The notes under the pieces are model-generated. The model had not been told where the DNA came from, ran no database searches, and was given only the letters and a program-made list of their open reading frames with translations. Below, piece after piece: positions 2,666 to 58,983 of a stretch of 64,000 nucleotides of DNA (position 1 is the first letter of the stretch; the number at the start of each line of letters is the position of its first letter). The stretch comes from Zoroaster sp. YZ-2022. Its lineage: Eukaryota > Echinodermata > Asteroidea > Forcipulatida > Zoroasteridae. Location of the stretch: NCBI GenBank assembly GCA_029582265.1, contig CM055822.1, positions 40,321,067 through 40,385,066 of the forward strand, written 5' to 3'. Position numbers and translations under genes: made by a program.

Positions 2666-2750
2666 TTAAGAGAGTACGTACATAAATCATAATTATGGTC
2701 ACTTGACTGGTAGAATTTATAATTGTGTTGTATATTTCGAGTAGTATGTC

Positions 2751-3330
2751 AGATAGCGGTTCTAGCCCACCTACTTTAAAAAACGATTTTTAGGGGACTT
2801 TCCCTAAATGTAAATAGGGCTTCTGGCTCACTTGGTTTTATTTCAGGAAACGTGTTAAGGCGCTAGGTGAGGTTGAGTAGGGATAGGGGATGATGATAAT
2901 GATGGTGATGATGGTGGGGATATGAGGTTGATGACGATGATGATGGGTGAGGTTGAGTAGGGATAGGGGTTGATGACGATGATGATGGTGGGTGAGGATA
3001 GGGGGTTGATGATTGTGGTTGAGGTTGAGTAGGGATAGGGGTTGACGATGATGTTATGAGAGGTTGAGTACGGATTGAGGGGTGTGGCTGTGGTTGATAA
3101 TTGTTAGATAGCGGTTCTAGCCCACCTACTTTAAAAAACGATTTTTAGGGGACTTTCCCTAAATGTAAATAGGGTTTCTGGCTCACTTGGTTTTCATTTC
3201 AGGAAACGTGTTAAGGCGCTAGGTGAGGTTGAGTAGGGATAGGGGTTGATGGTGGGTGAGGTTGAGGGGTTGATGATGATGATGTTACGAGAGGTTGAGT
3301 ACGGATAGGGGTTGATGATTGTGGTTGAGA
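2751..3330. repeat. Duplicated terminus and GAT/GGTTGAG minisatellite, left arm
   Basis: The end sequence starting AGATAGCGGTTCTAGCCC occurs twice in the same orientation, at 2751 and at about 3105, roughly 355 bases apart. Both copies run through the conserved stretch ending near AGGAAACGTGTTAAGGCGCT. Between and after them are irregular repeats of GGTTGAGTAGGGATAGGGG interspersed with GATGATGATG. The right arm carries the mirror arrangement (about 16400-16995). Confidence 0.75.
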
Positions 3331-3479
3331 GAATTATAGTGGGTGCGTAGAAGTAGGAGGATGTTTAGGGAAGTTACCTTTTAGATGATGTTGTCGTGTT
3401 AAGAGTATTGAAGCTGTTAAGAATGTTGTGGGTAATAGAATTAAAAAATGTAATACAAAAAAAGGGATAAATTGATTTA

Positions 3480-3808
3480 ACATTTTGTTACGCAACTGAA
3501 AGAGTATGTTGAGGTAAATAATATAACGGTAGTACGAGCATCCAGCAAGAATGGTAAAGTGAATAAAAAAGATTATTTATTTAGTATTAAAAAACATTTA
3601 AACGCTTTACCGGCTGAAAGAGATATTCACTTGCGAATGGCTTTTAGTAGGTAAAACAGACAAGTGTTTAAAAGCTAGCGTGTGTGGTGATGATTTTTGC
3701 GGGTTGCATAAAAGTCGTATAAAGGCGGAAATCAATTCCTCTCGCGTGTATGAAATGTGGTATGGGTACAAAAACAAAGCACAAATATGTTCAAGATGTA
3801 AAGGTTAA
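3480..3808 (+). pseudogene. Small zinc-binding protein, left-arm copy
   Basis: Open segments in shifting frames encode a short basic protein just upstream of PolB. The first part includes YVEVNNITVVRASSKNGKVN and an FSIKKHLNALPAERD-like helix. The second, around 3655-3808, holds a Cys/His cluster (KCLK..VCGDDFCGLHK) and a C-terminal CSRC pair before the TAA at 3806-3808. The frames shift near 3650 and again near 3740, and the start codon region present in the right arm is missing here. The better copy is at 15878-16231. Position, orientation and conservation in both arms suggest a real element gene. Its function is unknown; a nucleic-acid-binding zinc protein is an inference. Confidence 0.5.
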
Positions 3809-3913
3809 ATTTTGTTTTACTATTTTATGACTTATAAAATTGAGAAATTGATTTAACATTTTATAACTTATAAAAGTGATAAATTAATTTAATATTATCT
3901 AGTACTATAATAA

Positions 3914-6900
3914 ATGGAAGAAAGAAAATATTTATCGAAATGGACATTGCCAGAATTGAAAGAATTTGCTCGAGAACACATTGGTCGAATAATTATTATG
4001 CAAAACAGCAAGGTAAAAGTTGATAAACGCAGTTATTACAACGCGGTAAAAAATATAAAACGGCAAAAACAAAAGCCATTATATAAATAAATTTAGTTGA
4101 ATTGAGAGAGCGTATAGCGGTTGAAAATATAAATCTACCAGAACGCGGCGCGGGGAAAGTGGGAGGTTGTTAAAAAAAGACTACATCGGCGCTATTAAAA
4201 GGTTTCACAACCGAGAAGAAGCGTTGAGATTTAAACCTCCGATCGATGGTGGAAGATATTTACGCGAACGAAGAATGGTAGTTCCGCTGAATCACAGCAA
4301 AGAAAAAAGATTTAAATATTTTTTGGGAAGCGGTAAAACCAAAGATAATTGCCAAGTTGGGTATAGACTTACGAGAATTTAAAGCGTACAAGTTTATGAT
4401 ATTTATACGCGTTAAATTACGTAAAGAAAAACTAAACGGCACGATCGATTTTACCGAACCAAATTTTCATAATAATAAGCAAATTGTTTTATTAAATTTA
4501 GACGATATCGAAAATATACTCGATACCGTTTTTTCGCAAATTGTAGAGGCTTTAGAAAAATGGACTCAAAAGGGCAGCGAATGGGAGGTAGACCGTATCG
4601 TAGATATGAATATCACCGCCGCGAGATATCAACCTTTGAAAGGCGGTAGTTATATCGAGCTATGCGGCTACATAATAGATAAAAAAGCGTGCATTAACGT
4701 AAAAAACAAAGACGATGATTGTTTAAGGTGGATGATTCGTTGTTATAATAAACATAAGGAAAAATCGATAGAATTAAATATTCCAATTGAAAAAGTAAAA
4801 ATAAAACATTCAGATAGAATGTCAAAATACTCAGTAGAGGACGGTTTAAATTTTAATAATATCGACACACCCACACCGATTAATCAAATTAAGCGAGTGG
4901 AGAAACAAAACGATATAGCCATAAACGTTTTTGGTTGCGAGTCAAAATCGATACTAGTTTACAAATTCAGCGATCAACCCGCGAGACTAGAACGTATAAA
5001 TATATTATTAATTCACGAGGAAGAAAAAGAAGGAACTAGATCTCACTACGTTTGGATTAAAGATGTGAATACATTACTTTACGATCAAACGAAATACGAG
5101 CATCGTAAACATTTTTGTTTGAGATGTTTGCGGGTTTTCAACAGAAGCGTATCTCGAAAATCACATAAAATGTGCGAGGGAATAAACGACAGACAGACAA
5201 AGATCGTGATGCCACAAAAGGTAAAAACGATAAGGTTAAATTATAAATGTTCATAAAAAGATGAAAGTTCCTTTCGTAATATACGCCGACTTTGAAAGTA
5301 TTATTAAAAGGTTGACGATGTTAACTCTACTAATACTACGAAACTACAATAACACGTTGTTTGTGGTTATTCGTACGTCGTCGTTCGTTGCGACGGTGAA
5401 ACTAGCGATGTTGTCGTTTACAGAGGAGAAGATGCGGCTAAACATTTTAAAATGAATTAGAAAAGAAGAAGAAAACATCAACGAGATATTTAAAATCCTC
5501 AAAATTAATAATGACTAAAGAAGATGTAGAAGATTTTAAAAACGCTAAACAGTGTTGGCTATGTGAAAAGAAATTTTTTGAAAGTGATGACGCCAAGTTT
5601 GCAAAAGTACGCGATCATTGTCACATTACTGGAAAGTATAGAGGCGCTGCGCACAATAATTGTAATTTAAAACTGAGTTTAAAACCGAGTAAAACTTTTA
5701 TTCCGGTCGTATTTCATAATTTGCGAGGCTACGACTCTCATCTCGTCAAACGACGGGAAATCTAACGTGCATTCCAAACAATATCGAAAAGTATATTTCT
5801 TTTTCAATCGGGCAACTACGATTTATCGACAGCGCTCAATTTTTATTGGCGTCGTTGGATAAACTCGTAAAATCAAACAATTCTTTTCCGATTACAATAA
5901 AACTCGAACCCGATTTAGAAAAATTTAATCTCGTTAAAAGCAAGGGTATTTATCCTTACGAATACATGGATAGTTTTAAACGATTTGAAGAAAAACAACT
6001 TCCTTCGATAGAATCTTTTTATAGTAGTTTAAACGACCAACGCATTACTAAAGAACAATACGAGCACGCAAAAAACGTTTATAGCGAGTTTGATTGTAAA
6101 AATTTAGGAGATTATCACGATTTGTACGTGCGTACCGATACTTGTTTATTGGCGGACGTATTTGAAAATTTTCGTAATACTTGCATGAAACAATACGATT
6201 TAGATCCCGCTAATTATTATACGAGTCCGGGTCTAAGTTGGGACGCTTTGTTAAAACATTCTAAACAAACTTTGATTTGTTTACGGACGTTGACATGCAT
6301 TTGTTTATAGAAAAAGAAGGAGGAGGAGGGAACGTGCATGGCGAGTAAACGATACGCTAAAGCAAACAATGTACATTTAGACGATTACGATTCATCGAGA
6401 CCATCGAGTTACATTATGTATTTAGACGCTAATAATTTATACGGATACGCGATGAGTCAACCTTTACCAACGGGTAATTTTAAATGGATGACTAGTAAAC
6501 AAATTGACAAACTCGAGAGCGAAGGATTAAAAGTAAAAAGGATGTATTTTAGAAGTTGATTTAGAATACCCTAATACATTACACAATTCTCACAACGCGT
6601 TTCCACTCGCGCCAGAGTCGTTGATAGTGCCGAAAGAATGGATGTCACCGTATCAGCTCGAGTTATTAAAAGACAAACCCGCTCCAAACGTCGTAAAATT
6701 ACTCAAAAAAACTACGTGCTCCATTATCGTAATTTGCGATTGTATTTACAACTCAGTATGAAACTAACTAAAATTCATCGCGTTTTAGAATTTGATGAAT
6801 CGTGTTGGATGAAATCGTACATCGATAAAACACTCAACTCAGAAAACTCGCGACGAGTGATTTTGAAAAAGATTTGTACAAACTCATGAACAATTCAGTT

Positions 6901-7662
6901 TTGGAAAGACGATGGAAAATGTACGAAAACGCGTCAACGTAAATTTGAAGCGGTTAAACGATGAAAAAAGCGGAAAATCAAATTCGCGCGCTCATCTCGA
7001 AAACCAAATTTTGCCGAGGCGAGGATTTTCGATAACGATCTAGTAGGCGATTCACATGCACAAAACAAAACTCGTTCTCAACCGCCCGGTATACGTAGGA
7101 ATGAGCGTACTGATTTATCTAAACACTTAATGTATGATTTTTATTACAATCGATTAAAGAAGAAATACAACGACGAGTGTGACTTGGTATACACGGATAC
7201 GGATAGTTTGTTACTCAGATTCAAACTCAAGATGTATATAAAGATTTATTAAAGACAAAGATTTATACGATTTTAGTAATTATAATAAACAACATTTTCT
7301 ATTTTCTGAAGAAAATAAAAGTGATCGGTAAAATGAAAGACGAGACTGCGGGAACTTGCATCTCTGAAATTGTATGTTTAAGACCAAAAATGTATTCGAT
7401 ACTTTTTATCGAATGAAAAAGAAATAAGAAAAGCTAAAATGAGTTAAAAACAAGTTTTAGAACAAGATATTAAACACTCACGATATAAACAAGTTTTATC
7501 TCAAAATGTTACGCTACACCACCCTATGAGTTTTATTAGGCATGAAAACATAGATTATATACAACGCGAGTAGATAAAATATCGCTATCTCCTTTAGACA
7601 CAAAGAGATATATTTTAGAAAACGGAATACATACTCACGCTTACGGTTATTATAAATGTTGA
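3914..7662 (+). pseudogene. Protein-primed family-B DNA polymerase (Polinton-type), left-arm copy
   Basis: Reads from ATG 3914 (MEERKYLSKWTLPELKEFAR, a SAP/Rho-N-like N-terminal helix pair) to TGA 7660-7662 (…YILENGIHTHAYGYYKC). Segments in order: a CLRC...H finger-like motif near 5120-5165; exonuclease motif I FVIYADFESI (about 5273); a Cys/His cluster CWLCEKK...RDHCHITGKY...NNCN (5550-5670), like the EndoVII-type insert of animal Polinton polymerases; exonuclease motif II FHNLRGYDSHL (about 5718); motif A YIMYLDANNLYGYAM (about 6411); motif B KLMNNSVFGKTMENV (about 6880); and motif C YTDTDSLL (about 7189). Length, about 1,250 codons, fits the family. The frame is broken repeatedly by 1-base indels and by a 16-base deletion near 5747. 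Such polymerases copy linear DNA using a terminal protein as primer. The family call is secure; activity of this copy is doubtful. Confidence 0.88.
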
Positions 7663-7663
7663 G

Positions 7664-8565
7664 CTATACAACTTGATGAGATGTATTTTCCATGTGCGGT
7701 GGTACAAACTATTAAGCTGTATAGCTTTACTAAATCATAACCTTTTTTAACTCTACCAAAAGCGTAAGATTTATATACTAAATATCTAAACTAACGGGGT
7801 TCTTCTTAACGCTCAGCGAGGCTGGATTTTTGTTCAACGACTAGTTATTTAACGCTTTTAAACATTCTCTAGAAATTAGTTAATCTTTCGTTTTAAGTTT
7901 TATTAAACCACCCTTTCGCTCTAGCCTTAGCGACTAACGCCGGAGCTTGCGAATACGTTGACGGCCAACATAAATTCTTTTCGAGGATAAACTTTTTAAT
8001 GCGTGACTGGCTTGAGTAGCGCGTTTGTGCGTTTTTTAAACTATTTGCCGGGTTACAACAGGGAACTTGAGTTGATTTTTTGCGCGATTCTCGTCAGCTT
8101 AGCGATTAAAGCTAGCGGGTTTACGAATGCGTACTAACGCTCAATGTCTTTACAAAACTTTGCTAAGAGGTAGATGTTATAGTAATATATAAACTAACGG
8201 GCGGTGGGTTGAACCAAATTTTAAATAATACAAAATAGAATGATGTTGCGCTTTTTCAACTTGTCAAATTATAGCCCTAGCGGCTAACGCTAGTCTAACG
8301 TTAGTAAATCAAAGATTATCTAGCTTTAGCCGGTGAATTTTACCGCTTCTCAAAACTATCGAGTTGTATAATACAACAGCTTTACTAAACACACCTTTTT
8401 TAGCTTCACCAAAAGCGTATAAACCAACGAGTCTAATGGGGTAATTACGCTAACTGGTGAGGCTAAACTCATTCGACAAGAGATAATTTAATAGTAGAGT
8501 TGTTTTATTTTAGCGGTGGTGGTTAACGGTACATCTTTTTAATCATTTGCTGTACAACAGGGGGA
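7664..8565. repeat. Non-coding direct repeats inside the left arm
   Basis: Downstream of PolB, two diverged direct repeats about 690 bases apart begin near 7664 and 8354. Both contain GCTTTACTAAA...CCTTTTTTA..TCTACCAAAAGCGTA and then a TCTAAACTAACGGGGT-like block. The motif TAGCGACTAACGC (variants GCGATTAAAGC, GCGGCTAACGC) recurs every 200-300 bases. There is no open frame of any length. The mirror lies at 10262-11125. The block could be an origin, a transcript terminator region or the remains of genes; the sequence does not say which. Confidence 0.6.
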
Positions 8566-8689
8566 AATTTTAGTTTTTAACTAATTTATAATCGCGCTTA
8601 GACCTTTGTAGTTGGTATAATAGACGTATGTGAGGTTTTGCTCAAATCTTTAGGTTTTGCAATCACTCGACTGTCAACCTTATAGTCTT

Positions 8690-9560
8690 AGTGACTAAAG
8701 CTAGCTTGTTTGCGACTAATGTTCAATGTGTGTTTACGAAAGCTTGTTTACGACTAACGCTCAATGTGTTTACGAAAGCTTGTTTGTGATTAATGCTCAA
8801 TGTAGTGAGTAACCTGTTAGTAACCTGTGAGTAACCTGTTAACAACCTGAGAGTAACCTCTGAGTAACCTGTTAACAACCTGTGAGTAACCTGTTAACAA
8901 CATGTGAGTAACCTGTGAGTAACCTGTGAGTAACCTGTGAGTAACCTGTTAACAACCTGTAAGTAACCTGTGAGTAACCTGAGAGTAACCTATGGGTAAT
9001 TGCTCTCTACCTATGGGTAATTGCTTAACAACTTGTGAGTAACATGTTAACAACCTGTGAGATAACCTGAGAGTAACCTATGGGTAATTGCTCTCTACCT
9101 ATGGGTAATTGCTTAACGACTTGTGGGTAATTGCTAACGACCTATGGACAATTGCTCAACGACCTGTGAGTAACCTATGGGTAATTGCTCAACGACCTGT
9201 GAGTAACCTATGGGTAATTGCTCAACGACCTGTGAGTAACCTATGGGTAATTGCTCAACGACCTGTGAGTAACCTATGGGTAATTGCTCACGACCCTATG
9301 GGTAACCTGTGAGGTAACCTATGGGTGGTGCTCACGACCTATGGGTAATTGATGGGTAATTGCTAACGACCTGTGAGTAACCTATGGGTAATTGCTCACG
9401 ACCTATGGGTAATTGCTCACGACCTATGGGCAACGACCTGTGAGTAACCTATGGGTAACCTATGGGTAATTGCTAACGACCTATGGGCAACCTATGAGCA
9501 ACATATGAGCAACCTATGAGCAATTACTAAACAACCCATGAGCAATTGCTAACAACCTAA
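8690..9560. repeat. Spacer minisatellite 1 (33-bp unit)
   Basis: At first the array alternates GTAACCTGTGAGTAACCTGTTAACAACC-like units. From about 9100 it settles into a unit of 33 bases, GTAATTGCTCAACGACCTGTGAGTAACCTATGG, which loses its order again near 9330. Because 33 is a multiple of three, an 11-residue repeat (NLWVIAQRPVS) stays open at 9109-9312; I regard that as a consequence of the period, not a gene. At 8690-8800 there are three further CGACTAACGCTCAATG-type units related to the arm motif. Confidence 0.85.
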
Positions 9561-9965
9561 CAAGTAACGCTATTTGTATAGAATAGGCATTTAAATGCTC
9601 GACAAATAACTTTACTGTCCTTGTTTGATGGGGCTTTCATCGCTATATTATTGTTGTTCAGTTGCGCAACGGTTTTTATTTCAAAAATGTGTCTCAGTTG
9701 TTGTTATCATCTTTACTATATATCTAGATAATATTTTTATATTTTTCAAATGCGAGTAAACGATAGAAAGTATATTTTTTAGTCTTAAACTTGTAATAGA
9801 AAATTTAGTATTTAAATTTTTCCTAGTTCAGCATATCTAATTTTAAATAAACTCTTTTTGAAAAACCAAAATGAGCTTTATTTGTTACAAAACTGAGAGC
9901 ACTATAACCCGAAAGGATATTTACAATGATCTAACCCTCCTATGTACAGTGCAGTTGCCATAGGT
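9561..9965. other. Spacer unique region
   Basis: This 400-base AT-rich part of the palindrome centre lies between the two minisatellites. No frame, RNA motif or similarity was recognised. Confidence 0.5.
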
Positions 9966-10250
9966 GTGTCAGACCTTTCAAAACCTTTCAAGTTTGCTGT
10001 ACTGAAGGGTTTTGAAAGGTGAAACTGTCTGACAAAAGGGACCTATGAAAGGTTTTGAAAGGTGAAACAACTCTCTGAACAAACTGGTGTTGAAATGTTT
10101 CAATACCTTTCAAAGGGTTTTGAAAGGTGTGGTTGTTCAGTAGCAACAAATTCTGGAGGGTTTTAAAGGGTTCATACATTATAGATAGCCATTTGGCCAG
10201 TAAGCAGATTTTGAAAGGTTTTGAAAGGTCAAACCATAGGAGGGTAGGTG
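9966..10250. repeat. Spacer minisatellite 2 (GGTTTTGAAAGGT)
   Basis: A block of GGTTTTGAAAGGTGAAAC-like units of variable spacing. It occurs in both orientations at first (CCTTTCAAAACCTTTCAAG near 9976, then GGTTTTGAAAGGT at about 10007, 10051, 10117 and 10211), so it can fold back on itself. It marks the right side of the palindrome centre and has no counterpart on the left side. Confidence 0.8.
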
Positions 10251-12661
10251 ATTAAAGCCCCCTGTTGTAATCCAGCAAATAGTTTAAAAAAACACACAAA
10301 ACAAACTCCGTTATTAAATTATCTTTAGCCTCACCAGTTAGCGTAATTACCCCATTAGACTCGTTGGTTTATACGCTTTTGGTGAAGCTAAAAAAGGTGT
10401 GTTTAGTAAAGCTGTTGTATTATACAACTCGATAGTTTTGAGAAGCGGTAAAATTCACCGGCTAAAGCTAGATAATCTTTGATTTACTAACGTTAGACTA
10501 GCGTTAGCCGCTAGGGCTATAATTTGACAAGTTGAAAAAGCGCAACATCATTCTATTTTGTATTATTTAAAATTTGGTTCAACCCACCGCCCGTTAGTTT
10601 ATATATTACTATAACATCTACCTCTTAGCAAAGTTTTGTTAAAGACATTGAGCGTTAGTACGCATTCGTAAACCCGCTAGCTTTAATCGCTAAGCTGACG
10701 AGAATCGCGCAAAAAATCGCTCAAGTTCCCTGTTGTAACCCGGCAAATAGTTTAAAAACGCACAAACGCGCTACTCAAGCCAGTCACGCATTAAAGTTTA
10801 TCCTCGAAAAGAATTTATGTTGGCCGTCAACGTATTCGCAAGCTCCGGCGTTAGTCGCTAAGGCTAGAGCGAAAGGGTGGTTTAATAAAACTTAAAACGA
10901 AAGATTAACTAATTTCTAGAGAATGTTTAAAAGCGTTAAATAACTAGTCGTTGAACAAAAATCCAGCCTCGCTGAGCGTTAAGAAGAACCCCGTTAGTTT
11001 AGATATTTAGTATATAAATCTTACGCTTTTGGTAGAGTTAAAAAAGGTTATGATTTAGTAAAGCTATACAGCTTAATAGTTTGTACCACCGCACATGGAA
11101 AATACATCTCATCAAGTTGTATAGCTCAACATTTATAATAACCGTAAGCGTGAGTATGTATTCCGTTTTCTAAAATATATCTCTTTGTGTCTAAAGGAGA
11201 TAGCGATATTTTATCTACTCGCGTTGTATATAATCTATGTTTTTCATGCCTAATAAAACTCATAGGGTGGTGTAGCGTAACATTTTGAGATAAAAACTTG
11301 TTTATATCGTGAGTGTTTAATATCTTGTTCTAAAACTTGTTTTAACTCCTTTAGCTTTTCTTATTTCTTTTCATTCGATAAAAAGTATCGAATACATTTT
11401 TGGTCTTAAACATACAATTTCAGAGATGCAAGTTCCCGCAGTCTCGTCTTTCATTTTACCGATCACTTTTTATTTTCTTCAGAAAATAGAAAATGTTGTT
11501 TATTATAATTACTAAAATCGTATAAATCTTTGTCTTTTAATAAATCTTTATATACATCTTGAGTTTGAATCTCGAGTAACAAACTATCCGTATCCGTGTA
11601 TACCAAGTCACACTCGTCGTTGTATTTCTTCTTTAATCGATTGTAATAAAAATCATACATTAAGTGTTTAGATCAATCCAGTACGCTCATTCCTACGTAT
11701 ACCGGGCGGTTGAGAACGAGTTTTGTTTTGTGCATGTGAATCGCTACTAGATCGTTATCGAAAATCCTCGCCTCGGCAAAATTTGGTTTCGAGATGAGCG
11801 CGCGAATTTGATTTTCCGCTTTTTCATCGTTTAACCGCTTCAAATTTACGTTGACGCGTTTTCGTACATTTTCCATCGTCTTTCCAAAAACTGAATTGTT
11901 CATGAGTTTGTACAAATCTTTTTCAAAATCACTCGTCGCGAGTTTTCTGAGTTGAGTGTTTTTATCGATGTACGATTTCATCCAACACGATTCATCAAAT
12001 TCTAAAACGCGATGATTTTAGTTAGTTTCATACTGAGTTGTAAATACAATCGCAAATTACGATAATGGAGCACGTAGTTTTTTGGAAGTAATTTTACGAC
12101 GTTTGGAGCGGGTTTGTCTTTTAATAACTCGAGCTGATACGGTGACATCCATTCTTTCGGCACTATCAACGACTCTGGCGCGAGTGGAAACGCGTTGTGA
12201 AATTGTGTAATGTGTTAGGGTATTCTAAATCAACTTCTAAAATACATCCTTTTTACTTTTAATCCTTCGCTCTCGAGTTTGTCAATTTGTTTACTAGTCA
12301 TCCATTTAAAATTACCCGTTGGTAAAGGTTGACTCATCGCGTATCCGTATAAATTATTAGCGTCTAAATACATAATGTAACTCGATGGTCTCGATGAATC
12401 GTAATCGTCTAAATGTACATTGTTTGCTTTTAGCGTATCGTTTACTCGCCATGCACGTTCCTCCTCGCGTACCCTTTTCTATATAACAAATGCATGTCAA
12501 CGTCCGTAAACAAATCTAAAGTTTGTTTAGAATGTTTTAACAAAGCGTCCCAACTTAGACCCGGACTCGTATAATAATTAGCCGGATCTAAATCGTATTG
12601 TTTCATGCAAGTATTACGGAAATTTTCAAATACGTCCGCCAATAAGCAAGTATCGGTACGC

Positions 12662-13542
12662 CAACGGCGGATCCAGGGGGGGGGGGGCCAACGGGGGCCA
12701 TGGCCCCCCAACAAAACCGAAGCTGTGCGCCCCAAAAAGCAAAAACAAAAAAAGAAAGAAAGAAAGAAAAAAGGGAAAAGAGAGACAAAACAAAACCCCA
12801 CAACTTTACGCCCCCTCCTTGTGCAGCTAAGTCTTGCTTATACGTTCAGCTTTTGTTAAAGTATGCAAATTACAACACACTGATTGGCTACATGAATGTG
12901 TTCATAATCCTACTCACGATCCAACATTGCCACAACATTTGCAATGGTAGTTTGTGCAGTTAAGCCAAGCTGCATTAGACGAGGCGTACACGGTGATTGT
13001 ATGCATGGCTTATGCACACGCGACTGGTTGTGTGGGGTTTCCATGAGAGAGGATCGCCTGGAGTCTCTCATCCTCCTTCAAGCTCATCGTGACCGTCTCC
13101 CAACCACCACTCGGGTTATTGAGTACTTCGCCACAAGCGGTGTCCATCGATTGAACTTTAGTTTCTTGCTTTAACTGATTGTTGTTTCCTCCAATCGCCA
13201 CATTTTGCCATACAGGTATTTCAACGACCATTATAGGGCTCATATACAGTGGAAAAAGCTAATCTATTTATGAATAATATTTGTCCGCTCAGAGCAACCA
13301 GAAGCTAAGCATTTCCGGAAACCCTGCATTAGTCAAGTGGTTAGACCGCAGGACCTAGCCTACAATCACAAGGTTGCGGGTTCAAATCCAAAGCTTATCA
13401 CTGAAATTTCATACTAAATCAAGTATTGTCGTCTAGACCCACAAAACAAACAAACCCCACCAGAAACGTTTTGCGCTCGCAAATACGCCCCTCCACTGAG
13501 CATTTGGCCCCCCCCTAAACTTTGGGCCTAGATCCGCCGTTG
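12662..13542. mobile_element. Non-autonomous hAT element inside right-arm PolB
   Basis: The left end CAACGGCGGATCCAGGGGGG and the right end ...CCTAGATCCGCCGTTG are inverted repeats. CGGTACGC is duplicated exactly at 12654-12661 and 13543-13550, while the uninterrupted left arm has it once. An 8-bp duplication with such ends is diagnostic of hAT transposons. There is no transposase frame. A tRNA-like promoter segment lies near the right end. The exact duplication shows that the insertion post-dates formation of the palindrome, or at least the last sequence exchange between its arms. Confidence 0.92.
13326..13392 (+). repeat. tRNA-like (SINE-type) segment within the hAT element
   Basis: An A-box-like AGTCAAGTGGTTAGACCGC (about 13331) is followed about 35 bases later by a good B box, GGTTCAAATCC (13379-13389). 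This is the spacing of an internal pol III promoter. No acceptor-stem pairing was confirmed, so this is probably a SINE fragment, not a working tRNA. Confidence 0.5.
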
Positions 13543-15877
13543 CGGTACGCACGTACAAATCGTGATAATCTCCTAAATTTTTACAATCAAACTTGTTGTA
13601 AACGTTTTTAGCGTGCTCGTATTGTTCTTTAGTAATGCGTTGGTCGTTTAAACTACTATAAAAAGATTCTATCGAAGGAAGTTGTTTTCTTCAAATCGTT
13701 TAAAACTATCCATGTATTCGTGAGATAAATACCCTTGCTTTTAACGAGATTAAATTTTTCTAAATCGGGTTCGAGTTTTATTGTAATCGGAAAATAATTG
13801 TTTGATTTTACGAGTTTATCCAACGACGCCAATAAAAATTGAGCGCTGTCGATAAATCGTAGTTGCCCGATTGAAAAAGAAATATACTTTTCGATATTGT
13901 TTGGAATGCACGTTAGATTTCCCGTCGTTTGACTCGCGGCCTGCATAATGAGATGAGAGTCGTAGCCTCGCAAATTATGAAACACGACCGGAATAAAAGT
14001 TTTACTCGGTTTTAAACTCAGTTTTAAATTACAATTATTGTGCGCAGCGCCTCTATACTTTCCAGTAATGTGACAATGATCGCGTACTTTTGCAAACTTG
14101 GCGTCATCACTTTCAAAAAATTTCTTTTCACATATCCAACACTGTTTAGCGTTTTTAAAATCTTTTACATCTTCTTTAGTCATTATTAATTTTTGAGGAT
14201 TTTTAAATATCTCGTTGATGTTTTCTTCTTCTTTTTCTAATTCATTTTAAAAATGTTTAGCCGCATCTTCTCCTCTGTAAACGACAACATCGCTAGTTTC
14301 ACCGTCGCAACGAACGACGACGTACGAATAACCGCAAACAACGTGTTCTTGTAGTTTCGTAGTATTAGTAGAGTTAACATCGTCAACCTTTTTAATAATA
14401 CTTTCAAAGTCGGCGTATATTACGAAAGGAACTTTCATCTTTTTATGAAAATGTATAAATTTAACCTTATCGTTTTACCTTTTGTGGCATCACGATCTTT
14501 GTCGGTCTGTCGTTTATTCCTCGCACATTTTTATGATTTTCGAGATACGCTTCTGTTGAAAAACCCTGCAAACATCTCAAACAAAAATGTTTACGATGCT
14601 CGTATTTCGTTTGATCGTAAAGTAATTTATTCACATCTTTAATCCAAACGTAGTGAGATCTAGTTCCTTCTTTTTCTTCCTCGTGAATTAATAATATATT
14701 TATACGTTCTAGTCTCGCGGGTTGATCGCTGAATTTGTAAACTAGTATCGATTTTGACTCGCAACCAAAAACGTTTATCGCTATATCGTTTTGTTTCTCC
14801 ACTCGCTTAATTTGATTAATCGGTGTGGGTGTGTCGATATTATTAAAATTTAAACCGTCCTCTACTGAGTATTTTGACATTCTATCTGAATGTTTATTTT
14901 ACTTTTCAATTGGAATATTTAATTATATCGATTTTTCCTTATGTTTATTATAACAACGAATCATCCCCTTAAACAATCATCGTCTTTGTTTTTACGTTAA
15001 TGCACGTTTTTATATTTTATGTAGCCGCATAGCTCGATATAACTACCGCCTTTCAAAGGTTGATATCTCGCGACGGTGATATTCATATCTACGATACGGT
15101 CTACCTCCCATCCGCTGCCCTTTTTGAGTCCATTTTCTAAAAGCCTCTACAATTTGCGAAAAAACAGTATCGAGTATATTTTCGACATCGTCTAAATTCA
15201 ATAAAACAATTTGCTTATTATTATGAAAATTTGGTTCGGTAAAATCGATCGTGCCATGTTTTTCTTTACGTAATTTAACGCGTATAAATATCATAAACTG
15301 TACGCTTTAAATTCTCGTAAGTCTATACCAACTTGGCAATTATCTTTGGTTTTACCGCTTCCCAAAAATATTTAAATCGTTTCTTTGCTGTGATTCAGCG
15401 GAACTACCATTCTTCGTTCGCGTAAATATCTTCCCACCATCGATCGGAGGTTTAAATCTCAACGCTTCTTCTCGGTTGTGAAACCTTTAATAGCGCCGAT
15501 GTAGTCTTTTTAACAACCTCCCACTTTTTCCCCGCGCCGCGTTCTGGTAGATTTATATTTTCAACCGCCGCTCTCTCCAATTCAACTAAATTTAATTTAT
15601 ATAATGGCTTTTGTTTTTGCCGTTTTATATACTTTTTTACCGCGTTGTAATAACTGCGTTTATCAACTTTACCCTTGCTGTTTTGCATAAGAATTATTCG
15701 ACCAATGTGTTCTCGAGCAAACTCTTTCAATTCTGGCAATGTCCATTTCGATAAATATTTTCTTTCTTCCATTTATTATAGTACTAGATAATATTAAATT
15801 AATTTATCACTTTTATAAGTTATAAAATGTTAAATCAATTTCTCAATTTTATAAGTCATAAAATAGTAAAACAAAAT

Positions 15878-16231
15878 TTAACCTTTACATCTTGAACATA
15901 TTTGTGCTTTTGTTTTTGTACCCATACCACATTTCATACACGCGAGAGGAATTGATTTTCCCGCCTTTATACGACTTTTATGCAACCCGCAAAAATCACC
16001 ACCACACACGCTAGCTTTTAAGCACTTGTCTGTTTTTTACCTACTAAAAGCCATTCAAGGAATAATCTTTTCAGCCGGTAAAGCGTTTAAATGTTTTTAA
16101 TACTAAATAAACATTTTTAATTCACTTTACCATTCTTGCTGGATGCTCGTACTACCGTTATATTATTTACCTCAACATACCTCTTTCAGTTGAGTAACGG
16201 TATTTTTCCCAAAAATTATCTTTGTCGTCAT
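15878..16231 (-). CDS. Small double zinc-binding protein, right-arm copy
   Basis: Read on the minus strand from ATG 16231 (MTTKIIFGKNTVTQLKE) to the TAA at 15878-15880, about 115 codons. The C-terminal half has two metal-binding modules in one frame: KCLK..VCGGDFCGLHK and then CMKCGMGTKTKAQICSRC, the latter a C-x2-C...C-x2-C zinc ribbon. The middle is broken by one or two indels relative to the left arm (near 16125 and 16040). It starts about 105 bases upstream of the PolB start and in the same direction, so the two may share a promoter in the terminus. Short Cys/His proteins of this kind occur in large DNA viruses, but I do not recognise a named family. A role in replication or transcription of the element is inference. 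Confidence 0.55.
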
Positions 16232-16399
16232 CTTTACAATTACTCAAACCAAAAAATCAATTTATTACTTTTTTATTACATTTTTAATTCTATTACCCAC
16301 AACATTCTTAACATCTTCAATACTCTTAACACGACAACATCATCTAAAAGGTAACTTCCTAAACATCCTCCTACTTCTACGCACCCACTATAATTCTCA

Positions 16400-16995
16400 A
16401 CCACAAATCATCAACCCTATCCGTACTCAACCTCTCGTAACATCATCATCATCAACCCCTATCCTCGCCCACAATCATCAACCCCTCAACCTCACCCACC
16501 ATCAACCCGCTATCCCTACTCAACCTCACCTAGCGCCTTAACACGTTTCCTGAAATGAAAACCAAGTGAGCCAGAAACCCTATTTACATTTAGGGAAAGT
16601 CCCCTAAAAATCGTTTTTTAAAGTGGGTGGGCTAGAACCGCTATCTAACAATTTATCAACCACAGCCACCCCTCAATCCGTACTCAACCTCGTAACATCA
16701 TCGTCAACCCCTATCCCTACTCAACCTCAACCACAATCATCAACGCCCTATCCTCACCCACCATCATCATCGTCATCAACCCCTATCCCTACTCAACCTC
16801 ACCCATCATCATCGTCATCAACCTCCTGTCCCACCATCATCACCATCATTATCATCATCCCCCTGTCCCTACTCAACCCTCACCTAGCGCCAACACGTTT
16901 CCTGAAATAAAAAAAAGTGGGCCAGAAGCCTCATTTACATTTAGGAAAGTCCCTAAAAATCGTTTTTAAAGTAGGTGGCTAGAACCGCTATCGAC
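16400..16995. repeat. Duplicated terminus and minisatellite, right arm
   Basis: Mirror image of the left-arm end. Two copies of the ...GGGCTAGAACCGCTATC end sequence finish near 16648 and 16992, separated by CATCATCATC- and CCCTATCCCTACTCAACC-type repeats. A 95-codon open frame across 16623-16910 is a by-product of this repeat (Ser/Thr/Pro-rich) and is not believed to be a gene. Confidence 0.75.
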
Positions 16996-17004
16996 AATAC
17001 TACT

Positions 17005-18100
17005 TTTCGTAATTAGGAAAAGGGGCATGTGTTCACTGGTCCACAACTTATTTCACATTGTAAATAGGATTTTTGTGATTCAGAGTTCAACTATTGTTAC
17101 ATTAACAACACCCCTTAAGTCGTCCAGCCTTTGGTGTGAAGCGTAAAGTTTTGTCTGGTGGCCAGCTACATTTTTTGTTCACCCATTGTTTGGGCTTGCA
17201 GACGAGTGGCTTTCAAGGCAGCAAACGAAGGCGATTCTGTATACAATCCAAATAAATGCCTATACCCAAACTGAACTTTAAAATGCCAACAATAAATTGA
17301 ATATTCTGACACTACAGCTGGGCTGATCTATGAAGCAAGTCTATGTAGTGCCTGAGAGAAAACCAATTGCAGTAAGTTAATATTAGATTAGAGTTTTGTG
17401 TCAAGTTAAGTTTACCCCCAAAAATGTTTCCCCTCTCTCTGAAAATCCTGGCTACGTCACTGCTATGCATATATTATTATACTAAGACTTGAAATCAATT
17501 CAGACTCTGTGATTCATCTCCTAGCAATTCGACTAAAGACGCCGGTGGTGCATTTGCCACCACATCAACTTAGGACTATATTAATTGGGGCGGAAACTTC
17601 AGTTCAACATCCAGATCATAAACAAATCTGTTAATGATTGATTTCACAGTCACATCATTATGTTCAGATTCCCCATGCTTGTTCATTTTATTCACTGTGT
17701 TTTGGTAAATTTGTTAATCTGTACTTGCATGGAACACACTGGAAAAGAAAATGTATTGTTTTGCATCTGCATTGTTTATTTTTCCCTCTGTAACTGTAAG
17801 GGGACAGCACAGTGATCTGCGCTTTAGATTAGGGGCCCCTGAAATATAAACAAATTGCATCTTAAAAATGTCTTACATCTACATCAAACGCTATGCTTAT
17901 GTTTTCTGATGGTAATTGTGTACTATTATATTTTGTTTAAACAGGCGAAACATTTATTACGCTTGAAACGGTTGACATAATGAGATGAGCACCATCTCGT
18001 GGCCCCTTCAATGACTGGTCAAACTTTTGGATCATGTCATTGATTATCCGGATAAAGATAACATCCACAGGTTGGGCCACTCAGTTTAGAAGAAGGTGCT
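17005..18100. other. Region upstream of the SLC6 gene
   Basis: No gene or clear repeat. The region should contain the SLC6 promoter and any untranslated first exon, but I see no convincing TATA box or CpG-rich block. Confidence 0.4.
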
Positions 18101-24400: not shown

Positions 24401-27400
24401 TGGAAAAAGGAGGGATGTGGGGCGGGGTGGCTAAATGGGCAGTCAAACCTACTCTTCCTCCAGTTTATAGCTAGATACGCTATGCTTGGCGTGCCAAACA
24501 ATTATTACTTCCCAAACATAGCTCCTTCACGCCACGTGAAGGTCAAACAGTCGTTTACAAGCCAAGTGAAACAGCTGTTTTCAGTCAGCTTCGTTTGCTC
24601 TTAAAAGCCCCGCCTCTTTCTAACCCCCCACAGACCTGTTGGTAAACAACTCATTCATAAAACGTGTCATATGATATCAAACGCCTCCTTGACGGTTAGC
24701 CTGCAATCTGCAGCTGGGTCAATTACCTCTATGGGATTATGTTGAACCACATAGAGAAACCTGATTATCGTCACTTAAAGGGAAATTAGTGAAAATCAAT
24801 AATTTTACTTTGAAAAATCTTACTTAATCTACTTTTATGCATAGAACTTTAATTAAAACAAAGTCAATAAATACAACATTTTAAGATCCAACAAAAATAA
24901 ACTTCACCAATTGGACAACATATTAAAGCGTCATCAACCCGATTAATTGGTTATAAGTAAGGGTTTATCTACCATGGGGAAATGTTTAAACCGAATGATA
25001 CAGCTAGGCGCGCTCCAAAGATTGATGACAATGAGTTGTCCTACATTATTCAATTATGGGTTTTGTTTGGTTTAAAATGAGGCAATTGTGATGTTGCATT
25101 GTGATGTTAACAGCTGAGTTTATGTAGAAGCTTCACTATTTATTATTTTTTGTGCTAGGCCTATGTAAGATTTATTGAATAGACCAGCTTATAGGGAAAT
25201 AAAGAAAACCAAGCTCTTATAATAGAAAAGCTCTCCTTATTGATTTCTAAGAGGACAATAACGAATGAGCCAATCATTATGCAGGTTAGTAGTGAAAGGG
25301 AGTGCATGCTTGACTCATCAATTTTAATATGGTTCGTGGATGCTTAAATTGTTGTTTCATGTTTGGAAATATAATCATTCTACTTAACTTTGAAACCATG
25401 GATGCGTAACCTCCCCGGAGAAGTTGGAATATATTTACCCTTAAATTTGCGGGTAATCGTCCAGAGAAATGGTTAAATAAACTTTTAGCACAGCGGGGGC
25501 GGGGGGCACATAACATGGTCACGGTGTTGGGACTGGATTAATATTTAACGCCATTGTTTGAAATGACTCATTACTTTCTACAACTAGTCGATTTAATTTA
25601 TACAGCAATTAGATCACATTTTCTTCTGCTGTTTACACCTCCAGGTCCTGGGCTTGTATTTGTGGTTTACCCAGAAGCCATTGCCACCATGCAGGGCTCC
25701 ACAGCTTGGTCTATCATCTTTACTATGATGTTAATCACTCTGGGTCCTCGATAGCTCTGTAAGTCAATTCGTTTTGTAAAGCTGCATCTTGTCCAGCCAG
25801 CTCTACCCAAAAAACCTACACTCCATGATATGATTGGAGCGGATGTGTCAGTGTGTCACATTATAAATGGTCATTGTACATTACACGCGAGCATTTTTGT
25901 GATATTCATTGCCTGGAATAATAGGCTCTTTTCTAAATGGTATTCACCCACATGGACACTGCTTATAACCTTTTTGTTATTGAAGGCTTACCAGCTAATC
26001 TCGCTTTGTTATTAAATTTTTTCTTCCATACTCACTAGTTCGGTGGTCTTGAAGCTTGTTATATCTGGTCTTACAGGCAAATTCCCGAGACAATTAAAGC
26101 GAATCGACGCGAGCTTCTAACTCTTGCTGTAGTGGTGAGCGTGTTTTTATTCGCTTTGTTCAACGCTAACATATGGCGGTATCTACATGTTTGTATTACA
26201 AGAAAGATTTGCAGCTGGTGCGTCATTACTCTTTCGTTGTTATGTTTTGAAGCTATTGGGATCTCATGGATTTATGGTGAGTTCACAAAATATGACATTC
26301 TTACATAAGTATAATACACAGAATATGACATCCTAGAATGGGGTTTGAGGTTAAAATAATCACTCCTCATTCTTCTGAGGACAATCGGAACATATTGAAC
26401 GAAACGTCGAGGTTGTAACCTCCAGTTCTTTTTCAGAACCAATTATTACTACTCAATAGAGAATTTCATATGGTGTCACCCTCAATTAGTCTACTTTATA
26501 ATCACTCTAACTAGATCAAAAATAGGAAACGACTTATATGTTTTAGACTTGTCTCAATATAAATGTGTGTTAACTGTTTTATTAATTTGCAGGAATGAGA
26601 CGAATTTACAAGCAACATAAAGCGACACATGATCGGATTTTCACCAGGGTATGGTGGTATGTATCGACTGTGCTGGAAGATCTCTTTGCTCCTCTGTTTT
26701 TAGTGGTAAGTTGGATTTTAAGTCAACTTTGAGCTTCAAACGTTTTGCAAAAAGCTATCGAATAGCCAATATAGTGGTCTCAGACTTTGTTTGAATTGTG
26801 ATTTTAAGTCAAGAGTGCACCCTTCCTTAGCTGATTTTTGATAGCTGCTCTCTTGCAACCTCGTCCACACTGTCAGCTTCTTCGTCCGAAATGTATATAT
26901 GGTGAGTAGAGCTCGAACGGTATTCGAGAGGTTGCGGGTTCGAGTCCGGCATCAGCCAATTCTATATATATATATGGTGCGTGTATACAAAAAAGGTGAA
27001 ATCCAATTCAGGGCGTTAATATGCCAAGGTTATTTAGTTTGGACAATTTACATGTAGTGTACCAAATAAGAGGAACTCCTCAGTTTTCCATTGATACCTG
27101 TATCGATCCATTGTCTGTCACATGGCCGAGTACATTGTTATTGAAAATGGCAAATTCAAATCGCATTTTGCAAGTTTGGGTAATCGGTTCAAGGCAGTCT
27201 GAAATGGACGCATCACTTGACCTGCTCAGATGATTATGCGTAAGATTTTTAAGCTAGTTGAAAGATGGTACAACTAACGACTGAACAGCGAGTTTTCGTG
27301 ATTACAACATTTCACCAAACTCACAGTTTGCAGCAAACTCAAGCCCGATGCTTTCAGGGAACGTTTCCCAGAACGGGAGCCCCCAGCAGCCAAAACCATC

Positions 27401-28724
27401 TGGGCGCGAATGTTAGAAATATCAAAGAGTATGGCATCAGCCTCAACCGCAACAAGGGAATTCTGGCAGGAGGCGCACCGGGCGATCATCAGAAGGGAAC
27501 ATTGCAGCAGTAAGGCAGCAACTTTTGGAGCATCCTAGGGACACCAGCGCAGGCGAAATGAGCTGAGATTGCCTTCGGCGACATTCAACAGAATCACGAG
27601 ATTGGACACTCCACCAGCATCCATATCGGATTCACATCCGACATCAACTTTCTACGCCAGGAGATTTTGCTAGAAAGGCTCAAGCGCGTTTGCCAGATGG
27701 TTGATAGCCCGTACCGAGAGAGATGTCAATTTTCTGCAGTGAATCTCGTAATCGGCGACGAAGCTGCTTTTCTCCATGAACGGCAAGGTCAATACATATA
27801 ATGTTGCTTGGAATATGCACCAAGCAAGACACCCCCAGAATTCAAATTTGAGGTTAACATGAGTCGACAAAAGTGGACTGTTTGGATTTAGGACTTTGTG
27901 GAAGTGGTCATTAAAGCCTAATCGGACCGTTTTCTTTCGAAAAGGAATGTCAATGGTAACATGTATCTGCAGATGCTCCAATGATAACGTTTACCGCAGC
28001 TGCAGGAACACTTTGAGCGACAGGTTCGTGGGGTCTTCAGACCCAACCTCTGTGGTAGGGCCCAAGATGGCGCCCCAGCACATCGCCTTATCGCTGTCCG
28101 GAGATCGTCTGAGGGAACTCTCTTTTGGCGAACGATTCATCGCCGTCAACCATGAGGGGGTGGAATGGCCACCAAGATCACCTGACCTCACACCATGTGA
28201 CTATTTCCTTTGGGGACATTTTGAAGAACAAGGTGTTTGCAACTCCTCCCGTGATCTTGATGGTGTAGGGCCGTATTCGAAATGAAGTGGATGCTTTACG
28301 CAATAATCTGGCTATGGTGAGACGAGCAGTGCAGGACATGCTCCGTCGCTGTCAGCTTTTGTGTCGAAAGGGGAGAGGTGGACATGTTGAAGGTGTGGGT
28401 GCATAAAAGGGGCAATGTTAGAAGAGATTCTTCTTGAATAATGTCCAGTCATTCTTAAAGAAAATCTGGTTTATCATAATGACTTCTCACTAATTATCCT
28501 GCCTTGCACTGATTACCCAAACTTGGCAAAAATGCGATTTGTAATTTGTCATTTCAATAACAATGTACTCTTTCGTCATGTGACAGCTGTGGAACTCAAT
28601 AAAAAGGTAATCAATGGAAAGTTGAGGAGTCTTCTTCTTTGGTACACTACATGTAAATTTTCAAACTAAATAACTGCTGTGGCATATTACCCCCCTGAAT
28701 TCGGATTACCTTTTTTGATACGCA

Positions 28725-28802
<78 letters not shown>

Positions 28803-57119: not shown

Positions 57120-58983
57120 TAGTTGGGCAATAAGACAGATCATTGGGTATGAAAATTCTCAAACAGGAACAACACATTGGCTTATTACACTGTTTACACA
57201 GATCATACGCGTTTGTGTTCTCTTTGTTCTAGTACTGCGTAAACAACACAGTCGTTTTTTGCTGGAGACATTTTTCCAGGATAGTGTTGTTGACATGAAA
57301 AGGGCCTGAAGCACATGGAAGTTGGCTTGCATGATGTACGGTCATACTTCCAGGTGGATAAAAGTTCTTCGATTACCTTTACCCTAAAATCCAAATGGGA
57401 AAGGTGATGGTTTTGTGGAGAAATATGGTGTTGCATATACCACAGTAGCATTCAGAAACAGATGTCAAGAATGTTTACGAATACTCTTTCCACCATTTCA
57501 TTGTTCTGTGTGGATGAGAGGTAATACTGCACAATTTGTGCTGCCAGATATCAGTTCCTCCATGTATTTATTGTAATCACTGCAAACTACAGAAGGTTTT
57601 TTAATGTCGCGATGTCCGGTTAAACTGTTTTTACAAACGAATCTGCTTAGGTGGTGACACTGCAATTCCCGTAATTTGTCAAGAGAGTTACACGCTTTGT
57701 GTCTTGCCAGAGCGACGCAAAGTTGGCCCACCTTTGTATAAAACCGGGGGTCTTCTGTGTTTTTCATTGGAAACTTTTGGGATGAGCAAAATCAGGAATT
57801 CCTTGTGTGGTCCTTAAGCGCACAGTTCCACAAACTCCAAATCCTAGCTGTGATAACTTTGAGACCAGAGCTGGGCTGTTGTACCAATTATCCATGAAAA
57901 TGACCCCATGACCCTTGTGTTCCAGTCCTTTCCACTCAGATCCAGCGACAACCTGGCCTGCCTGCATGAATAACAGGATGGATGGTAAGTGTTGCCATGG
58001 TTGCAGCATGCACAGTGGAGGGTTGAATTGTTGCTGTGCTTGGCTCGAGACCCTGTGAACATCTTCCAAGCACACGTATACCCGGATTCGGACTCATTTA
58101 AAGAGAAGCATTTCATTCCCCACTTGTTGGCCTTTCATGGTAAGTAACGCTTAAAGCTCAGTCGTCCTTTAAACTTGGCCATACTCTCTCGTCTGGTGAG
58201 AGGTTTCGTCCAGGGCTGTATAGTATTTTGAGAAAGGTTGGCAGTACAATGTCGAGTAAAGGGCGAAGTTTTGCTAGTTTGTCGGTAGGGCTGCTCGACT
58301 TGAGCTCTGTTGTTGGCTAGGTGAAAACATCTAAGGATTGCAGTGAATCTGTTGTGGGACATAGATGACGGATACATACCGGACTTCGAAAGAACATCTG
58401 ACATGTGACCAGTGCATGCTGTATCGAAGGCTCTTTTATTTGATGCCTCATGCAAAGTAATAATGTTCCACGAATGCCATCATTTCAGGAATATTTGTTG
58501 GAGTCCAAGCGGACTGACGATTGGTTGGGTTTTACCGCAAGCAAGTTTGCTCAGCATATCGATTTGTCTCCGTCACCATCAGCTCCCCAGGTCGCTTGAC
58601 AGAAGTAGTGTTGTTCGAAAAATTTGGAAAGGTGTATAGTTACTCCAAATCTTCAGTCGTTCCCTGTTTCCACTATGAATTGCATGGGTTTCTTCGTGTA
58701 TCCTTGTTATGTGCGTTTCACACCAACCAGACCGGTAGTTTGGCTTTTTCCGATGATGATGATGATGTCCAGGGACGCATTCCTCTTTCACTATCATCCG
58801 ACTCGGTGTAGAATCCTCGTCCAGAAGATAAGACATATCTGACCCACTATCTGCGAAGAGTTCTTCCAAAATGTGCACTTCCATCGGCCGTCCATAGCTA
58901 TCAATGGCACGCAAAAGAATTTCGCGGGCGTCCTTTTTCAGCCAATCAGAAAACACTCTGTCAATTGAGGGCGCTATTGACAT
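57120..58983 (-). pseudogene. Decayed piggyBac-type transposase (PGBD-like)
   Basis: Read on the minus strand from ATG 58983. An acidic N-terminal region is followed by GMYPSSMSHNRFTAILRCFH (about 58370), then PDE (in a shifted frame) with FKGRLSFKRYLP, SGYTCAWKMFTG, GHGVIFMDNWYNSPALVSKL, CGTVRLRTTQG and KKPSVVCSDYNKYM (about 57590). At the C-terminus, in another frame near 57140-57200, is YDLCKQCNKPMCCSCL, the cysteine-rich DNA-binding finger. These are ordered landmarks of piggyBac transposases. The third catalytic Asp after NKYM is lost to a frameshift, and several indels break the protein. TTAA-flanked ends were not found. It could also be a domesticated PGBD gene hit by sequencing errors. 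Confidence 0.8.

Follow-up and report, generated by a model that had tools for sequence, protein, structure and literature searches.

A palindromic Polinton-related element with mirrored polymerase genes in the genome of the sea star Zoroaster sp. YZ-2022

Results

A giant palindrome with two mirrored genes

The stretch of DNA analysed here, hereafter the window, comprises 64,000 nucleotides from the sea star Zoroaster sp. YZ-2022 (contig CM055822.1, C7:40321067-40385066 of the 1.0-Gb, 616-contig assembly GCA_029582265.1) and contains a palindromic element related to the Polinton/Maverick transposons, which we call P1. Comparison of the window with itself by blastn revealed an inverted repeat spanning positions 2740-17004, 14.3 kb in all, whose arms occupy about 87% of the element, so that inverted repeats make up most of it, as in foldback-type elements. 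With gaps counted, arm-to-arm identity rises from the outside inward, from 91.4% through 95.8% to 98.3% (2740/17004 to 8467/10324), and gap-free inverted stretches reach 451 nt at 100%. The tips, AGTAGTAT on the left and ATACTACT on the right, are of the AG/AGT type that ends the terminal inverted repeats (TIRs) of Polintons and Mavericks, and TTTCG flanks the element on both sides as a target-site duplication (TSD) of 5 bp, where 6 bp is the Polinton length. A first-pass annotation of the same DNA had described two genes mirrored around a spacer, arms exceeding 80% of the element, Polinton-style ends and a target duplication, and all of this was borne out.

Each arm carries a small gene, gene1, and a gene for a family B DNA polymerase (PolB); the coordinates of these and other features are collected in Table 1. 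Inspected by eye, gene1 appeared SAP-like and zinc-finger-like, and it had no Pfam match. In PolB, Pfam matches to DNA_pol_B_2 (4.9e-6) and Endonuclease_7 (2e-6) fall on separate pieces, and the PolB of relatives matches all along the gene in both arms (tblastn), which indicates that the P1 gene is of the protein-primed type of polymerase expected of a Polinton, with frames that are broken as assembled. The family is large: 83 proteins match the N-terminal piece, and 7,896 of 7,990 scored candidates match the polymerase region of L001, a Polinton-like virus contig described below, at E 1e-20. For the N-terminal open reading frame (ORF) at 15455-15772 no relative was found.

Other genes typical of Polintons were sought in the window with queries from L001 and from short-TIR Polintons of the same genome, the ordinary copies described in the next section. 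An A32/FtsK-type ATPase (queries from L001 and the ordinary copy C19) matched nothing at E 0.01, and neither did the capsid candidate and other ORFs (queries from L001, C19 and C6), the capsid query being itself weak (Capsid_N E 0.055) and no minor capsid protein having been identified among the queries. These results agree with the earlier statement that packaging ATPase and capsid genes are missing.

The same annotation reported no integrase, which is correct for a working gene, but fossil fragments are present. Between 7655 and 8700 the DNA matches integrase regions from seven ordinary copies 24 times, in one orientation throughout, whereas 50 shuffles gave 0.06 matches on average and never more than 2; 20 of the 24 are collinear (7799-8612). 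They sit beside PolB, where ordinary copies carry their integrase. At the protein level the window alone does not rise above shuffled sequence (best E 0.041 versus 0.002), and what it retains of an rve integrase is thus fossil DNA fragments. The remnants are stronger in a second palindrome, P3, where they are detectable as protein (E 2.5e-6) and mirrored on both sides, the two fossils being 99.8% identical (L020 2291-2786 and 4074-4569; C7:5551690-5553968). The label "polymerase-only" is apt insofar as P1 is reduced to gene1 and PolB, but not strictly, since gene1 is a second gene and the integrase persists as a fossil.

Table 1. Features of P1 and its immediate surroundings (window coordinates; TSD, target-site duplication; TIR, terminal inverted repeat)
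Feature	Position	Strand	Evidence or remarks
TSD, left copy, TTTCG	2735..2739	.	sequence
Left arm of palindrome	2740..8467	+	blastn self-comparison
Outer arm: tip AGTAGTAT, terminal unit 2747-2839 again at 3102-3194, G-rich minisatellite 2866-3318	2740..3329	+	repeat analysis
gene1, left copy; small ORF, frame broken as assembled	3487..3847	+	matched by gene1 of C19, an ordinary copy (tblastn, E 7.7e-15)
PolB, left copy; frame broken as assembled	3914..7653	+	Pfam, tblastn; exonuclease, Endonuclease_7-type and polymerase motifs in pieces, by eye
Fossil integrase, tail-to-tail with PolB, short fragments only	7799..8612	-	DNA hits to ordinary copies; mirror in right arm up to 10324
Asymmetric central spacer, 1,856 bp	8468..10323	.	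blastn; related sequence, same orientation, in P3 and P4
Minisatellite, 11/22/33-bp	8805..9559	+	similar same-orientation repeat before ATPase gene in ordinary copies
Nested dispersed repeat, ~315 bp	9932..10245	.	at least 37 copies elsewhere at 96-98%; not in P3 spacer
Right arm of palindrome	10324..17004	-	blastn self-comparison
PolB, right copy; frame broken as assembled, interrupted by nested insert	11135..15772	-	Pfam, tblastn
hAT-like non-autonomous insert, ~0.9 kb, right arm only	12662..13542	.	TIR CAACGGCGGATC; 8-bp TSD CGGTACGC at 12654-12661 and 13543-13550
gene1, right copy	15839..16198	-	tblastn match 15839-16096, E 2.95e-18; outer limit from mirror of left copy
TSD, right copy, TTTCG	17005..17009	.	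sequence

Ordinary Polintons in the same genome

Kinship with Polintons, proposed in the first-pass annotation, was supported by full copies in the same genome, to which the PolB DNA of P1 is 84-89% identical. Four ordinary copies (C6, C19, C16 and C15), 15.6-17.7 kb long, have tips of the P1 kind and TIRs of roughly 200-300 bp. Their TSDs are exact 5-bp repeats in C6, C19 and C16 (CCAAT, ACGCC and ATTGC) and match at 4 of 5 positions in C15. C19 encodes an rve integrase (4.7e-8), an A32-type ATPase (1.2e-11) and the weak capsid candidate already mentioned, and by tblastn integrase, ATPase and capsid candidate occur together at all seven ordinary loci (C15, C6, C3, C14, C19, C16 and C7). Among the genes recognised in these copies there was no protease. 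PolB is followed by the integrase gene, which lies on the other strand, then by a 205-aa ORF, a minisatellite and the ATPase gene; the minisatellite was found at 7/7 loci and examined in detail in C6 and C19. Gene1 lies at the far end in all four complete copies (C6, C15, C19 and C16), whereas in P1-P6 it lies beside PolB.

Two contigs, L031 and L032 (C14:400200-420199), are probably two adjoining ordinary Polintons in opposite orientation, with a 500-N gap, and the tip and gene1 match in L032 probably comes from the adjoining copy.

A duplicate of P1 and other palindromic loci

About 162 kb upstream of P1 lies P2 (C7:40161836-40177289), which has the same anatomy and, in its right arm, a hAT-like insert at the same site. 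Its left arm holds an additional hAT-like copy at the equivalent of window 4666-4674. The two were considered as separate transpositions, and this was rejected: their flanks are 96% identical over 1.5 kb, and a probe 28 kb past the right end of P2 matches the window at 93.8%. Judged by these matching flanks and the distant probe, P1 and P2 are a single insertion within a duplicated or second-haplotype stretch. The neighbourhood may have been duplicated in tandem, or two haplotypes may have been assembled one after the other. The hAT-like inserts in the P2 contigs are at L018 2086-3137 and L019 3221-4082.

Searches of the genome scored the best candidates only (40 of 3016 in the first search, 40 of 79 with the inner arm, and 40 of 1869 in the search that showed right-arm PolB in C5 and C10), and the resulting counts are lower bounds. 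The inner-arm search recovered at least 13 loci with a plus-strand match followed by a minus-strand match, P1 and P2 included, and a palindromic centre is present at at least 11 loci beyond these two. The first-pass annotation had held that other copies proving to be ordinary short-TIR Polintons would speak against its interpretation; such copies do exist, but so do these further palindromes. Unpaired inner-arm matches were also seen, for example at C11:35647171, C11:35514883, C9:37266945 and C16:20512426.

P3 (C7:5549627-5559381) is palindromic with TATAT on both sides. P4, on C11, has PolB in both arms, 99.05% identical over 2.4 kb. In every arm of P1-P6 gene1 precedes PolB, and P1, P3 and P4 have a common spacer sequence in the same orientation. 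Nine newly found loci were characterised by inner arm and PolB: left PolB is present in 9/9, at 70-86% identity to the window, and right PolB in 8/9 (C5, C10 and then six of the seven others), those six being 96.1-99.3% identical to their own left arms. PolB therefore stands in both arms at 11 loci (P1, P2, P4, C5, C10, C11:29, C18, C3:52, C14, C1:99 and C1:17), or 10 separate insertions when P1 and P2 are counted once. PolB segments are 96-100% alike inside an element and differ by 6-30% between elements. Since elements this diverged keep the architecture, and P1, P3 and P4 share a spacer, the palindromic form is, on this comparative evidence, inherited, recurrent or both.

Arm identity, selection and PolB phylogeny

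In an alignment that treats the right arm as two separate pieces and penalises gaps lightly, the arms of P1 differ by 32 substitutions in the outer piece, 5 in the inner piece and 0 in the innermost 1.3 kb. One-base indels number 47, split 24/23 between the arms, and 41 of them lie in runs of at least 2, which suggests unpolished long-read sequence. Just past 8467/10323 the arms show weak homology that exceeds chance (score 23.5, versus a maximum of 16.0 in 624 controls); we did not use it because this region also repeats inside the arm. Folding of the terminal DNA was unremarkable (z -0.34).

Over a 971-bp PolB segment the two arms differ by 0.5% in P1, 0.3% in P2 and 1.3% in P4; the palindromic-family copies P1-P6 are 6-11% apart from each other and 7.7-13% from ordinary copies. 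In the quartet formed by the arms of P1 and P2, 15 sites separate left arms from right arms, 0 separate P1 from P2 and 1 is crossed (another 62 have a state found in a single arm; positions in or close to gaps were excluded), a pattern that reveals no chromosomal conversion since P1 and P2 were duplicated.

The ratio of nonsynonymous to synonymous substitution (dN/dS) in PolB is 0.14-0.26 among P1, P3, P4, P5 and P6 and 0.15-0.21 among ordinary copies; between the arms of one element it is 0.32, 0.96 and 0.55, with few changes. In a tree of 551 bp of PolB, which includes no row for the ordinary copy C16, palindromes occur in several places and require at least three state changes, although the well-supported branches alone are compatible with one origin. 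Palindromes have probably formed repeatedly, or PolB has passed between them and ordinary copies.

Relatives in viral and prokaryotic collections

An initial scan of viral and prokaryotic collections returned no relative; the next recovered L001 (IMG/VR 3300028392_002905). The A1 scans of viral_contigs and genome_contigs returned none, and the A2 scans recovered L001 once more together with eight short contigs, L002-L009. L001 resembles P1 in having a PolB of the same family (44%, palm piece) followed by a tail-to-tail rve integrase, and differs from it in carrying an A32-type ATPase and a weak capsid candidate; no inverted repeat was found in the 13.1 kb examined of its 17.4 kb. In L002 (JANQFH010000027.1) an rve integrase lies next to PolB, and one ORF of L008 is integrase-like. 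L002, L003, L008 and others, filed as bacterial or archaeal metagenome-assembled genomes, carry Polinton-type PolB and are perhaps mis-binned host or virus DNA.

Nested inserts and other features of the window

The insert in the right arm of P1 is presumably a hAT-type non-autonomous transposon, to go by the generally known features of that class. The ends of the dispersed repeat at 9932-10245 appear, by eye, to be inverted (ACCCTCCTATG / CATAGGAGGGT). Elsewhere in the window, ORF pieces at 57498-58479 and 27863-28285 resemble, on visual inspection, remnants of piggyBac and mariner transposases, and a separate 83% inverted repeat (26963-27197 / 28499-28739) adjoins simple-sequence arrays.

Discussion

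Polintons stand between transposons, linear plasmids and large DNA viruses. P1 shares with them a PolB of the same family, tips of the (AGT)2/(ACT)2 type, inverted repeats and a target duplication, and departs from them in having no intact integrase, ATPase or capsid candidate and in the position of gene1 beside PolB. Intact vertebrate Mavericks have TIRs of 46-1,447 bp (mean 402), (AGT)2/(ACT)2 ends and 6-bp duplications (PMC8097293); the arms of P1 are 5.7 kb long, or 6.7 kb with the insert. The parts of the open-licence literature that we consulted yielded no description of palindromic or nonautonomous Polintons.

Foldback transposons and defective-interfering genomes built as inverted duplications share with P1 very long inverted arms, an asymmetric spacer and, probably, the need for a full relative. 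To our knowledge, fly foldback elements carry no polymerase, unlike P1. Known defective-interfering genomes are transient, whereas palindromes of the P1 type reside in the host genome in many copies.

We consider it likely that P1 is a palindromic Polinton derivative without capsid or integrase, which is copied by its own PolB, has its arms equalised in a mobile phase, and is inserted by the integrase of full copies. According to this model, the half of a full Polinton that bears PolB would have been made into a mirror image by an inverted duplication, which placed the same origin at both ends. Most simply, this could have happened when the protein-primed polymerase, while in the minisatellite region, switched template to the strand that it was itself making; the surviving order and orientation of PolB, integrase and minisatellite suit an inverted duplication that turned near the minisatellite. 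Gene1, from the opposite end of the parent, would have been brought in beside PolB, leaving each half with both terminal genes. The palindrome might then replicate as linear DNA with identical ends by means of its own PolB, and perhaps gene1, and, since a displaced strand is able to form an arm-length stem, its arms would be equalised in the mobile phase. Re-entry into the chromosome would be by the integrase of full Polintons, which have the same kind of tips and 5-bp duplications, and the palindrome's own integrase, no longer needed, would have decayed in place. Such an element would act like a defective-interfering or satellite genome of a Polinton. That integration would need a helper had been anticipated in the first-pass annotation, and it accords with a P1 that has no working integrase and full copies that carry rve. 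The annotation's other proposal, a replication dimer that then integrated, needs amending: a single chance event does not fit diverged elements that share architecture and spacer.

The anatomy, kinship and selection described above are observed; we infer how replication proceeds, that a folded single strand serves as an intermediate and that integrase acts in trans from general knowledge of protein-primed replication, combined with the common kind of tip and the length of the TSD. We know of no direct demonstration of how Polintons replicate. Several observations weigh against this explanation. As assembled, PolB is intact in neither arm of P1. P3 has no PolB in its left arm, and its TATAT duplication is of low complexity; P4 is missing its left end; P5 (C3) and P6 (C11) each consist of one arm; and C2 has PolB on the left and none at the mirrored place on the right. 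Of the 24 integrase matches, four break the collinear order (8222-8255 and 8395-8423). The P1 duplication measures 5 bp, compared with 6 bp in vertebrate Mavericks (PMC8097293). The mobile phase itself is deduced from assembled genome sequence. A single palindromic clade was rejected with 18 rows (approximately unbiased test, p 0.013) and with 17 rows (p 0.0006), a set that was chosen after the tree had been viewed. Because the palindromes form no clade in the PolB tree, part of the purifying selection on PolB could predate palindrome formation. P1 and P3-P6 share a derived gene1-PolB arm, which bears on the timing of selection, but exchange of PolB would blur this.

An unlikely competitor is that P1 is purely non-autonomous, a long-TIR element for which full Polintons supply both replication and integration, its PolB copies being passengers and palindromes arising anew and dying. 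The scatter of palindromes in the PolB tree, the rejection of a single clade, and the broken PolB copies of the window are what this idea would lead one to expect. Set against it, dN/dS in palindrome PolB is about as low as in full copies, despite the derived gene1-PolB arm and the spacer shared by P1, P3 and P4, and the integrase has eroded where PolB has not.

Less probable still is a chromosomal origin, in which an ordinary insertion was inverted and duplicated by repair and its arms were later homogenised by gene conversion. Large palindromes are generally known to convert, and the inner piece of the arm does have fewer substitutions than the outer (5 versus 32). This scenario is at odds with the same tips at both ends within a TSD, seen in P1 and also in P3 (although TATAT is of low complexity), with ten insertions that have PolB in both arms, and with quartet sites that show no conversion since the P1/P2 duplication. 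An assembly or chimeric-read artefact is scarcely credible: the indel-rich differences between arms do suggest noisy reads, but the palindrome ends exactly at the element tips and TSD and one arm only has an insert with its own TSD, both of which argue against an artefact, as does the presence of the same structure with another insert in P2 and of the same form at diverged loci.

The derivation of P1 from a Polinton thus remains our preferred explanation, and a broader version of it seems to us evenly balanced between true and false: that the genome holds a standing population of palindromic, capsid-less replicons derived from Polintons, whose arms are made identical again in each round of mobility, as a folded strand is copied by protein priming, and whose insertion is parasitic on full Polintons. 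If true, these loci would record, as fossils, how a virus-like transposon repeatedly gave rise to satellites resembling defective-interfering genomes, and gene1 would be pointed to as a replication protein, such as a primer protein. Only gene1 and PolB were kept, mirrored, as the rest was lost, suggesting that the two are likely the minimal replication set and making gene1 a testable candidate for a primer or accessory protein. The palindromes would also provide evidence from nature that such DNA has its ends equalised while it is mobile, and satellites would become a further layer of Polinton biology.

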